Shown here: piece after piece, positions 36,691 to 39,841 of the stretch
Layout of the letters: every line of letters starts with the position of its first letter
Position numbering within the stretch: position 1 is the first letter of the stretch
Assembly (NCBI RefSeq): GCF_029953635.1
Contig: NZ_CP124543.1
Location: 971,455-1,035,454 of the forward strand
Reading direction: 5' to 3'
DNA length: 64,000 bases
DNA from: Halotia branconii CENA392
GTDB taxonomy: Bacteria > Cyanobacteriota > Cyanobacteriia > Cyanobacteriales > Nostocaceae
The notes under the pieces: model-generated
Databases searched by the model: none
Told to the model about the DNA's origin: nothing
The model's input: only the letters and a program-made list of their open reading frames with translations
Program-made: the position numbers and the translations under genes

Positions 36691-37773
36691 TTAAAGACTG
36701 CGAAAATACCTAATTATAGCCTGAGCGATCGCTTCATTACCATCTTTAGCAACACCCTGGGATTGCTTCGGTTTTTGGGGTTGTTGATGAAGAAAATCCC
36801 AAGTCCCATGAAAAAACTCAGTTGGGGTAAGAATTTGATGTTGATGGTAATTAACAATACCTTCTAAAAGAAAAGCTGCTTCCGCAAAGTCATCACGGGG
36901 AATAGTAACCAGAGGTATTCCCAGGCGTGTAGCTTCCGCAAAAGTGCCGTAACCAGGTTTAGAAATAACACGCCCACAAATAGACATAAAATCTACAGGA
37001 CGATATTTGCGGTCAGTAACTTTGATTAAATTAGGTAAATCAGGAGCAGATTGATCAAAGATCATGAATTGCCAATCTAGAAAATGTTTCAGATTGTCAT
37101 AGGGAATCTGATTTAAACCTAAGCCTCCAAAGGTCAGTAAAATAGTTTTTTCTAAAGGCGCAGTTATCCTCCAATTAGCACGTAAATCATCCGCAAAGTA
37201 ACGAGGAGAACCACCAGTTAAGCCGACATCTGTGATATTATTGAAAACCTGCATTGGCTCGTGAAAAGGAAGACGAAATAGGCGATCGCACTTTGAGTAA
37301 CAATCACTAATCCAATCAGCAATAGCAATAAATTCGTCTCCCCAATCTCGGTAAATCAAATCCCAGCCAAAATTACTCATCATCCAGCAAGGAATATTTG
37401 CCGCTTTGGCGAATAAAGGAGTTAGAAAAGGAATATCTGCCAAGATGAGATTGACGCGATTTTGGCGAATAAAATTGACTTCAGAAGCTATCAAAGAATT
37501 TTGATGTTTCTGAATATCTAGCAACTTTTCTTTAGTCGCTTCCTTATCCATTGTCAAGCTATCTGCTTGAATTACACCCAAGTCAAATGATCGGGGACGA
37601 TGAATAAAATCTCCTTCTATATAGCACTCTAGTAACCACCGTGGGGCAGTTGTCACCATAATTAGCAAGACTTCTGGACACAACTTTTGAATTGTCGCCG
37701 CTACCGATGCTGTGCGAGTCGCATGGCCGAAACCGTGGTTAGTGATGGCTACGTATAAAATTGGACGTTCCAT
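36691..37773 (-). CDS. Glycosyltransferase-like protein (GT-B fold)
   Basis: The 360-residue protein begins ILYVAITNHGFGHATRTASV AATIQKL, the N-terminal donor/acceptor loop of the GT-B (MurG-like) fold. TILLTFGGLGLNQIPYD is the linker, and CGRVISKPGYGTFAEATRLG IPLVTIPR is the C-terminal nucleotide-sugar motif (KPGxGT). The architecture also resembles the N-terminal half of plant L-arabinokinase. The true acceptor is unknown. It ends next to a MITE and is not in an operon. Confidence 0.8.
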   Translation of the reverse strand: MERPILYVAITNHGFGHATRTASVAATIQKLCPEVLLIMVTTAPRWLLECYIEGDFIHRPRSFDLGVIQADSLTMDKEATKEKLLDIQKHQNSLIASEVNFIRQNRVNLILADIPFLTPLFAKAANIPCWMMSNFGWDLIYRDWGDEFIAIADWISDCYSKCDRLFRLPFHEPMQVFNNITDVGLTGGSPRYFADDLRANWRITAPLEKTILLTFGGLGLNQIPYDNLKHFLDWQFMIFDQSAPDLPNLIKVTDRKYRPVDFMSICGRVISKPGYGTFAEATRLGIPLVTIPRDDFAEAAFLLEGIVNYHQHQILTPTEFFHGTWDFLHQQPQKPKQSQGVAKDGNEAIAQAIIRYFRSL

Positions 37774-37874
37774 TTAATTTCTAACTTTCACTTTGTTAGT
37801 CTGTTTTACTGAAAGAAATCACAAAATTCGTATTATCAGCGCACGTTTAGCTACTAAAAAAGAATGTCAAGATT

Positions 37875-38057
37875 ATGAAAAATACACAAAATTCTGAATC
37901 TAACCAAAATTTAGAAGACGACTTACTAATTGAATATAACTTTGATTACAGGAAGGCTCGTCCTAATCGTTTTGCTACTCAAGAAAATGAGACTTCTATA
38001 ATAGAGGACTTACGCAAAACTAACGCAATTTCGTCATTACGAGCGATAGCGACGTAA
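37875..38057 (+). CDS. Small acidic/basic protein, 3' end replaced by a MITE
   Basis: The 60-residue frame reads MKNTQNSESNQNLEDDLLIE YNFDYRKARPNRFATQENET. The YNFDYxKARPNRFA motif is typical of small cyanobacterial proteins of about 75-90 residues, often next to BrnT-like or other toxins, which continue with a CopG/BrnA-like helix part. From residue 44 on the codons belong to the MITE at 38006, so the native C-terminal half is missing. Probably a broken antitoxin-like gene. The ATG has the reasonable leader CAAGATT. Confidence 0.55.
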   Translation: MKNTQNSESNQNLEDDLLIEYNFDYRKARPNRFATQENETSIIEDLRKTNAISSLRAIAT

Positions 38058-38129
38058 TCGCAAAAATCCTGCGATTGCTTCCCTACACTTCGTTTCGGTC
38101 GCAATGACGATTTTGGCTTGCGTAAGTCC
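38006..38129. mobile_element. MITE family 2 (GGACTTACGC inverted repeats)
   Basis: The ends GGACTTACGC (38006-38015) and GCGTAAGTCC (38120-38129) are perfect inverted repeats. The interior contains a second inverted pair, GTCATTACGAGCG and CGGTCGCAATGAC. The element sits between two convergent genes and encodes the final residues and stop codons of both. Confidence 0.85.
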
Positions 38130-39297
38130 TGCTAAACTTTTGTATTTCCTCAATTAATTGGTCGATTTCTGATTCCAAAGTCAAGTAATGGACTGTGGCG
38201 CGAATACAATCAGGATCGGCAATTGTGCGAGTGAATATTTTTTGTGACTCTAAAAACTGCACTAAATTGAAACTCGCTTGAGGTTGTGACTCAGTGAGTT
38301 GAAAAGAAACTAAACCGCTTTCAGGTGGTGAAGTTCGGAGACATTTAACATTAGGTAGCGCTGCCAACTTCCGCCACAAATACTCACTTTTAGAGCAAAT
38401 TTGCTCGTAACGTTCTTGTGAAGTTCCCCATTGTCGATGAACAGCGATCGCCTCTTTAAATCCTACATATAAAGAGTAAGCTGATGTTGATACTTCATAT
38501 CTTCGTCCATCCGGTTGCCAAGACACAGGCTGCGATCGATTATCTACAACAATGCCACGCAAACCAATAAATGTCGGTTGCAGACTTTCTCTGGCTTCTG
38601 ACCGCACATACAAACCACCAATACCAGCGGGACCACATAACCACTTATGACCAGTGAAAGCATAAAAATCTGCTTGCAATTCACTCAAGTTTAAGGGTAA
38701 TAAACCAGCAGATTGAGCAGCATCTACTAAAACTAAAGAATTATTCCTTCGACACACTTCCACTATTTTGTCAAGAGGTAAAACTTGACCCGTATTCCAG
38801 AAGACATGACTTAAAATTACCAAACGAGTATTAGGGCGCAAGTGTTGGGCAACAACTTTCGCGGGGTCGCCTTCATTTAAAGTTGCCATTAAAGGGCAAG
38901 TAGTCACTTCTACTGCGTATCTGCGGCCAATTTCCTGCGCCGTCGCAATTACCCCTGGGTGTTCGCAGTCAGAAAGCAGTATGTGGTCGCCAGCTCGCCA
39001 ATCAATACCCCACATGGCAATATTGCAGCCGACAGTGACATCTTCGGTTAAAGTAATTGTTGATGATGATACATGAAATTCCGAGGCGATCGCTTCTTTG
39101 ATCGCTTGCTTTTGTTGAGTCAGCCACGCATAAGCTTCATTTCCAAAAGGGCCGAGGTGTTGAATGTGAGCTTCAGCTTGAGTAACTGCATCCATTGCTT
39201 GCTGAGGCATTGGCCCTTGCCCACCATAGTTAAAATATGTCTTATTTGCTAAAGCTGGAAATTGCTCTCGATGGTGATGCAAATTAGTTTTGATCAT
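38083..39297 (-). CDS. Class V PLP-dependent lyase/aminotransferase (cysteine/cystine lyase type)
   Basis: The protein opens HREQFPALANKTYFNYGGQG PMPQQAMDA and contains LVDAAQSAGLLPLNLSELQA DFYAFTGHKWLCGPAGIGGL (PLP Lys in TGHKW). It is closest in pattern to the C-DES cystine lyase of Synechocystis, which releases persulfide or sulfide from cystine, and to NifS/SufS-like enzymes, but lacks an obvious active-site Cys loop. The ATG at 39297 is preferred. An in-frame ATG ten codons earlier (39327) would overlap the PadR gene by 23 bases. The last 17 residues (from about SRTYASQNRHC) are encoded by a MITE. Confidence 0.85.
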   Translation of the reverse strand: MIKTNLHHHREQFPALANKTYFNYGGQGPMPQQAMDAVTQAEAHIQHLGPFGNEAYAWLTQQKQAIKEAIASEFHVSSSTITLTEDVTVGCNIAMWGIDWRAGDHILLSDCEHPGVIATAQEIGRRYAVEVTTCPLMATLNEGDPAKVVAQHLRPNTRLVILSHVFWNTGQVLPLDKIVEVCRRNNSLVLVDAAQSAGLLPLNLSELQADFYAFTGHKWLCGPAGIGGLYVRSEARESLQPTFIGLRGIVVDNRSQPVSWQPDGRRYEVSTSAYSLYVGFKEAIAVHRQWGTSQERYEQICSKSEYLWRKLAALPNVKCLRTSPPESGLVSFQLTESQPQASFNLVQFLESQKIFTRTIADPDCIRATVHYLTLESEIDQLIEEIQKFSRTYASQNRHCDRNEV

Positions 39298-39304
39298 AGA
39301 AATA

Positions 39305-39841
39305 TTAATTAGTACTAATGACTTCAATAGCCGTCTTCAACCAATCAATGTAAGTTTGCTCTCGCTGCATAATTAAGTCCAGCACCAGTTGATGCATAAC
39401 TTGCTCACGATTTATAGATGCTTGGTTGAGAGGCAGCACTTTGATTGCTTGACAATTGACCATCTTTTCACCGTGAACTACTAGCTGTTGTTTTAGTAAG
39501 TTGATGATTGCTTCATTAGGTAGTTGAGCTGCAAAAAATAATTGCATCAGCAACGGTTCTCGTACCGTCGGTAATGGTTGAGGACATTGCAGCCAGCGAA
39601 CTAATTCAGCTTTTCCAGCATCAGTTGTACTATACACCTTTCGGTTGGGGCGATCGCTCTGAATTTCAACAGTACAAGTAATCCAGCTCTGTGCTTCAAG
39701 CTTATCAAGGGTTCTGTAGATTTGCGCTTGGTCTGCCGGCCACAAGTGAGCAATACATTGATCAAAGCAGTTTATTTTCAGGTCGTAACCTGTCATTTGT
39801 TCTTGCTGAAGGAGACCTAGAATGATGTGCGCTAAAGACAT
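39305..39841 (-). CDS. PadR-family transcriptional regulator
   Basis: The 178-residue protein has the PadR winged helix at residues 1-75: MSLAHIILGLLQQEQMTGYDL, then WPADQAQIYRTLDKLEAQSW and RPNRKVYSTTDAGKAELVRW. A C-terminal helical dimerisation domain (about 90-175) follows. PadR proteins usually repress a neighbouring gene in response to a small molecule. It is directly upstream of the lyase gene on the same strand, which is the likely target. A 14-bp palindrome lies 69 bases upstream of its start. Confidence 0.9.
   Translation of the reverse strand: MSLAHIILGLLQQEQMTGYDLKINCFDQCIAHLWPADQAQIYRTLDKLEAQSWITCTVEIQSDRPNRKVYSTTDAGKAELVRWLQCPQPLPTVREPLLMQLFFAAQLPNEAIINLLKQQLVVHGEKMVNCQAIKVLPLNQASINREQVMHQLVLDLIMQREQTYIDWLKTAIEVISTN

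Follow-up and report, generated by a model that had tools for sequence, protein, structure and literature searches.

A miniature transposable element between a putative C-S lyase gene and a BrnT/BrnA relic in Halotia branconii CENA392 probably marks a rearranged junction

We analyzed a stretch of 64,000 nucleotides of the cyanobacterium Halotia branconii CENA392 (contig NZ_CP124543.1, positions 971,455 to 1,035,454), referred to here as the window. The region of interest lies between a lyase gene and a glycosyltransferase gene on the same strand (Table 1). The gap from the lyase stop to the glycosyltransferase start is 309 bp and holds, in the opposite sense, the relic of a BrnT/BrnA toxin-antitoxin pair together with a miniature inverted-repeat transposable element (MITE). 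The two flanking genes are conserved in the family: for each, 213 of 217 genomes contain a relative (E <= 1e-60; for the lyase, the own genome is included). Of 92 relatives, 72 have a glycosyltransferase gene downstream of the lyase in the same orientation, with a gap of 1-2043 bp (middle value about 135). The other 20 showed none in the stretch examined, where the end of the contig or of the flank may be the cause.

Table 1 Features at the junction, with positions counted from the first letter of the window.
Feature	Position	Strand	Basis or remark
MJ1255-like glycosyltransferase	36691..37773	-	next gene downstream of the lyase in most relatives read
BrnT toxin gene relic	37793..37897	+	last 34 of 95 codons
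BrnA-type antitoxin gene relic	37875..38057	+	43 native codons; similarity to whole BrnA
MITE, 124 bp	38006..38129	.	perfect 10-bp terminal inverted repeats
Element-derived lyase tail	38083..38129	-	one split codon, 14 whole codons and stop
L-cysteine/L-cystine C-S lyase (C-DES type, Aminotran_5), predicted	38083..39327	-	ORF, relatives and solved chains

The lyase ORF was called from a TTG, with an ATG 10 codons further in. Its best matches among solved structures were the C-DES chains 1elq (446.6 bits over residues 16-398) and 1n2t (444.7 bits), and the next listed chain scored 89.1 bits. The product is thus predicted to be a C-S lyase of the C-DES type, with the corresponding activity. Named carriers of relatives include Nostoc, Anabaena, and Calothrix, and the nearest named carrier is Atlanticothrix silvestris CENA357 (L115), at 91% identity.

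To compare the C-terminal ends, we collected 109 lyase loci besides the window and merged them by their last 200 residues into 92 distinct relatives. In all 92, the chain ended 0-7 residues past the residue aligned to F398, while in the window it ends 16 residues past it. The residues after F398 are S-RTYASQNRHCDRNEV; the final 15, RTYASQNRHCDRNEV, as well as the stop codon are read from element DNA. In the nearest relative (G011, 91% identity), the gene ends with F S Q N and a stop (TTT AGC CAG AAT TAG), and the window DNA diverges from this sequence after TTTAGC. Judged by this relative, the lyase appears to have lost two native residues and gained 15. The preliminary description of this DNA had proposed that the lyase gene runs into the element and stops inside it, and this was borne out. 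The proposed 16-17 element residues came to 15, from 14 whole codons and a split one. It had also named, as the observation that would speak against the proposal, homologues with the same C-terminal residues and no element; the 92 relatives carry no such tail.

The alignment of the window protein with 36 relatives (out of 61 that passed filters), 37 sequences in all, displays the domain columns that they share. The catalytic domain is intact, and the change is thus a C-terminal extension. The structure model of the lyase was of moderate quality (mean pLDDT 76.0), with a pLDDT of 90 for residues 391-400 and then 59 and 42 for the blocks over the tail. In this model, the last helix runs into the tail and is drawn to residue 411, and a description of the tail as disordered is therefore unsupported by the model. 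The subfamily consensus of the element, read in the same frame, gives RTYASPNRHCDRNEV followed by a stop. A tail close to that of the lyase would thus be expected from any copy entered in this frame. Given its position past the domain, the tail is probably tolerated, and it is probably near neutral.

The element measures 124 bp, or 128 bp when the outermost two bases on either side, which are less conserved, are counted in, and its inverted ends, GGACTTACGC and GCGTAAGTCC, are perfect. A search of the same genome (7.1 Mb) recovered 13 full copies at 97-100% identity, including the window copy, and a second subfamily at 81-85%, with 12 copies that are full or nearly so. In total, this search gave 45 matches at E <= 0.001, fragments among them, from the 40 of 102 first-look candidates that were scored. 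The copies are abundant and occur in both orientations. The 12-mer AGGACTTACGCA was found 167 times in the genome, compared with once for the reversed control. Within the window, the 10-mer end with one mismatch allowed was found 5 times versus 2.1 expected; the 10-mer alone is not rare there, and the weight of the element call lies in the genome-wide copies. The inverted ends and the dispersed copies agree with the preliminary description, which had reported a MITE family with perfect ends at this position. Matches at E <= 0.001 were present in 132 of 217 family genomes, the own genome included, and many of them were partial. The 10-mer end occurs in 11 papers, and none of the 10 titles listed deals with a cyanobacterial repeat.

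Within the subfamily of the window copy, most copies, read with their flanks, extend to TAGG...CCTG. On the brnA side, the window copy has G at its outermost position, and the other 12 of the 13 copies have T. Only one of the six frames of the 124-bp element is open throughout (42 codons) and the remaining five contain stops; an element of this length is too short to hold a transposase. We looked for an autonomous relative among 100 of the 167 end sites, those listed, and no two perfect ends faced each other at a distance of 0.8-3 kb. The facing pairs among these sites span 47, 91-92, 115-118, 126-128, 141, 163, 182, and 327 bp, which points to several element sizes with one set of ends. Two further copies, L020 and L021, about 0.4 Mb apart, have a shortened right end in common and identical sequence beyond it. 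Both strands of the element fold strongly (z of -6.46 and -6.00). No terminator-like site was detected in 37600-38300 (0.4 expected), and this interval contains one promoter-like site, at 37809-37836 on the + strand, versus 1.6 expected. Given the strong folds, a role of the element at the RNA level is possible.

On the other side of the element lies a small ORF. Matches to its product were found in 70 of 217 genomes, the own genome included. Apart from the window itself, none of the matches listed extends past query residue 50, and the similarity thus stops close to residue 44, where the element edge lies. Counted from the match start, relatives of the small gene read on the + strand are 66-76 codons in length. 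In 4 of the 6 other loci listed, the small gene is overlapped at its start by an ORF of 93-96 aa, and the one overlapping ORF that was tested is a BrnT toxin. The small ORF corresponds to BrnA residues 1-42 of the intact pair in genome G178, and we assigned it as a brnA relic because of this 83% identity over 42 residues to the whole neighbor of a BrnT. The BrnA domain profile PF14384 gave no match in the small ORF; two whole BrnA relatives score 21.2 and 22.2 bits against it, themselves below the cut-off of 26.1.

The remains of the toxin gene precede the antitoxin fragment. The BrnT fragment matches residues 62-95 (or 61-95) of 95, at 83-85% identity to the pair in G178, and its last 23 bp overlap the start of brnA, an overlap also found in that genome (locus L069). 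Against PF04365, it scores 33.2 bits (cut-off 34.5) over profile positions 55-77 of 77, compared with 100 bits for an intact BrnT relative. The arrangement resembles that of BrnT/BrnA type II toxin-antitoxin systems, with a toxin gene, putatively of the PF04365 family, upstream and an overlapping antitoxin gene downstream; it differs in that both genes are truncated in the window. About the first 61 of the 95 toxin codons are lost. For BrnT of B. abortus, a review names Asp6, Glu7, Lys9, Arg41, and Glu78 as important for ribonuclease activity (PMC5086665). By residue position, the first four of these would fall in the lost part.

The toxin break lies 19 bp from the glycosyltransferase start (37773) and 213 bases from the element. 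The pair is broken at both ends, and because the toxin is also cut 213 bases away, it is a relic whatever the element did. This qualifies the earlier proposal that the element probably halved the small protein. About 40% of the antitoxin is indeed missing from the C-terminus (43 of about 74 codons are kept), yet not simply through the element, as the toxin end is cut as well. The proposal that the small ORF ends within the element after 16-17 element residues did hold: its 43 native codons are followed by one split codon, 16 whole codons, and the stop, all from element DNA. At the element start in this frame, TAG is present in 10 of the 13 subfamily copies, TGG in 2, and GAG in the window copy, and therefore the 16-codon read-through rests on an uncommon base. 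The ORF formed by brnA and the element is probably not a functional gene, and the BrnA fragment would be without function because its toxin is gone.

Other brnT loci also showed damage. At L030 (G000:C1:4671710-4674771), a second brnT is cut to its C-terminal residues 60-91 and is followed by an apparently whole brnA-like ORF, as read by eye. A MITE copy of the second subfamily adjoins this locus; by eye, it is flanked by an ATAAA duplication and by a longer direct repeat. The related genomes G179 (L068) and G178 (L069) have nearly identical brnA genes, preceded by a whole brnT in L069 and, by eye, an apparently cut one in L068. The brnT at G000:C1:6280884-6281193 is apparently split over two frames, with matches to residues 3-41 and 39-94.

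We also searched for other genes that end in copies of the element. The scan covered 27 copies, including two fragments, and considered ORFs with at least 60 codons outside the element, so that the brnA relic is not counted. No ORF ended in the element in 24 of the 27 copies. The window copy gives 15 codons to the lyase. At L018, a 76-codon ORF takes 17 codons and a 102-codon ORF a bare stop from the copy, and L022 supplies a bare stop to a 118-codon ORF. Other putative genes may thus also end in copies. These results bear on the idea that the lyase tail, or the ORF formed by brnA and the element, has been selected for a new function. The open lyase frame and the retained domain would allow it. 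Against it, the tail has no counterpart in the 92 relatives and is modeled with low confidence, the brnA fragment has no toxin partner, and the 24 copies that end no such ORF give no sign of a general use of the element as a gene end. We regard selection for a new function as highly improbable.

The preliminary description had attributed the altered ends of both proteins to one insertion. Where one element has inserted cleanly, its two flanks begin with identical 5-mers. In 21 copies with intact ends, out of 30 fetched (L020, L021, and L024-L030 were left out because an intact end is missing), we compared the flanking 5-mers, counted from beyond the two outer bases on either side. The flanking 5-mers agreed at all 5 positions in fifteen copies, at 4 in three, at 3 in one (L017), and at 2 in two, namely L022, whose ends are both intact, and the window copy. 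When flanks from different copies were paired as a control, 4-5 of 5 bases matched in 38 of 420 pairings (9%). For L017, a 6-bp duplication fits by eye after a one-base shift. The MITE family thus makes 5-bp duplications (18 of 21 copies at 4-5 of 5), and all 12 siblings of the window copy in its subfamily have 4 or 5 of the 5 flank bases duplicated. The window copy is without a visible target-site duplication, as it is flanked by TAATA on the brnA side and CTAAA on the lyase side. Set against the 18 copies at 4-5, a match of 2 in 5 suggests that the flanks were probably joined by a rearrangement.

A single insertion could still account for the locus if the brnA fragment had already abutted the lyase end and the 5-bp duplication had since mutated. 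The element and its flanks are in place, and L022 likewise has no visible duplication despite its intact ends; at one copy, a mutated or slipped duplication is possible. However, the 12 siblings, which are 97-99% identical, all keep 4-5 of the 5 duplicated bases, and this reading needs the loss of 3 of the 5 bases while the element itself barely changed. We consider it unlikely, and the claim of one insertion altering two proteins does not stand on these flanks. As the two 5-mers are unlike and the two sides belong to different genes, one clean insertion is not the reading that we favor. Instead, we think it probable that the junction is rearranged, arising either from two insertions and a deletion or from one insertion and an adjacent deletion. 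The MITE now forms the junction between the 3' end of a conserved C-DES lyase gene and a decaying brnTA relic.

Two routes could lead to such a junction. In the first, one copy would have inserted in the lyase end (CTAAA) and another in brnA (TAATA), and the two would have recombined by homology, deleting the DNA between them. The missing duplication with its two different 5-mers is consistent with this, as are the abundance of copies in both orientations and the failure to find the intermediate pieces elsewhere. MITEs have moreover been called important hot spots for homologous recombination in a 2024 review (PMC10969869). The route requires two nearby insertions, and no intermediate was seen; we rate it as quite plausible, if somewhat short of an even chance.

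In the second route, a single insertion into the lyase end would have been followed by a deletion from the outer edge of the element, taking the rest of brnA together with the other duplicate. Adjacent deletions are known for insertion sequences. The outermost G on the brnA side, in place of the T of the 12 other copies, may place the break at the element edge, and CTAAA is still present on the lyase side. The G could be a point change, and the present sequence data do not tell this route from recombination between two copies. An edge deletion seems to us a possible origin, with perhaps one chance in three of being the right one.

For a rearranged junction of either kind, we searched the genome for the missing pieces. 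The C-terminal part of brnA was represented only by weak paralogues, three in number (ORFs of 107, 108, and 139 aa; best E 0.0025). The BrnT search returned the window relic, one relative at 51%, and five weaker pieces, so that the 5' part of brnT was present only in weaker paralogues. The DNA beyond the lyase stop of G011 gave ten short matches (best E 0.047), a search of little power since the DNA past this stop differs greatly between species. That the missing pieces were not found elsewhere weakly favors a deletion over an inversion. No reciprocal copy with exchanged 5-mers was seen among the 30 copies read out of 45 matches. Copy L026 was considered as an inversion partner, as it has CTAAA on one side, but it was rejected because it is a 64-bp fragment in the wrong orientation. 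The genus is represented by one genome, and no empty site in a close sibling is available for comparison.

We also examined the corresponding gap in G011. It is 770 bp long (L039 2701-3473) and holds a different ORF, XisI-like by eye, with what appears to be a cut XisH end. An element of 163 bp with the same ends as the MITE lies in this gap, without a visible target duplication. In the relatives L055, L056, L059, L064, L140, L164, and L178, the same 10-bp end was found 30-250 bp past the lyase stop. The G011 gap thus combines a two-gene module that is cut, as read by eye, with a same-ended element, and so the gap may be a recurrent pruning site. A wider reading is that recombination between two MITEs pruned the toxin-antitoxin genes from the two-gene unit and gave the lyase its translated tail in the same step, at a gap where such pruning perhaps recurs. 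We put this forward as speculation that is rather unlikely to hold in full.

Several precedents exist for repeats of this kind in coding sequence. In Erwinia carotovora, the ERIC-type MITE RU-1 lies at the 3' ends of the genes for the amidase ECA3499 and the L-threonine 3-dehydrogenase ECA0168; its DNA lengthens both proteins and reportedly eliminates the native stop of ECA3499 (Delihas 2007, PMC2759123). As in the window, a conserved enzyme gene ends in repeat DNA, which extends the protein past its domain, and at ECA3499 the repeat continues past the new stop. The Erwinia cases differ in the element family and the host, and only part of the repeat is in ECA0168. The parts of that paper available to us describe no convergent relic; the window copy differs in this respect and in having no target duplication. 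Rickettsia palindromic elements are likewise read in protein genes (PMC2229807, PMC10969869) and are also short repeats in frame within conserved proteins. They are described as in-frame inserts inside genes, whereas the element in the window supplies a C-terminus and a stop.

Among Nostocales, Anabaena sp. 90 is reported to contain 147 complete or partial MITEs of 77-541 bp, 132 of them intergenic and 15 in disrupted ORFs (PMC3542288). Their ends are unlike those of the insertion sequences of that genome, and they have caused pseudogenes. The likeness to the present element, MITEs of Nostocales in disrupted ORFs, is one of description, and the 10-mer end is absent from the main text of that article.

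MITE-supplied C-termini on conserved enzymes are already in print (Delihas 2007, PMC2759123), and the general point that repeats can supply protein ends has stood there since 2007. The junction in H. branconii illustrates that a small non-coding repeat can give a conserved enzyme a new end while its domain is left untouched, and that a rearrangement resembling a single insertion can be revealed by the absence of a target duplication.
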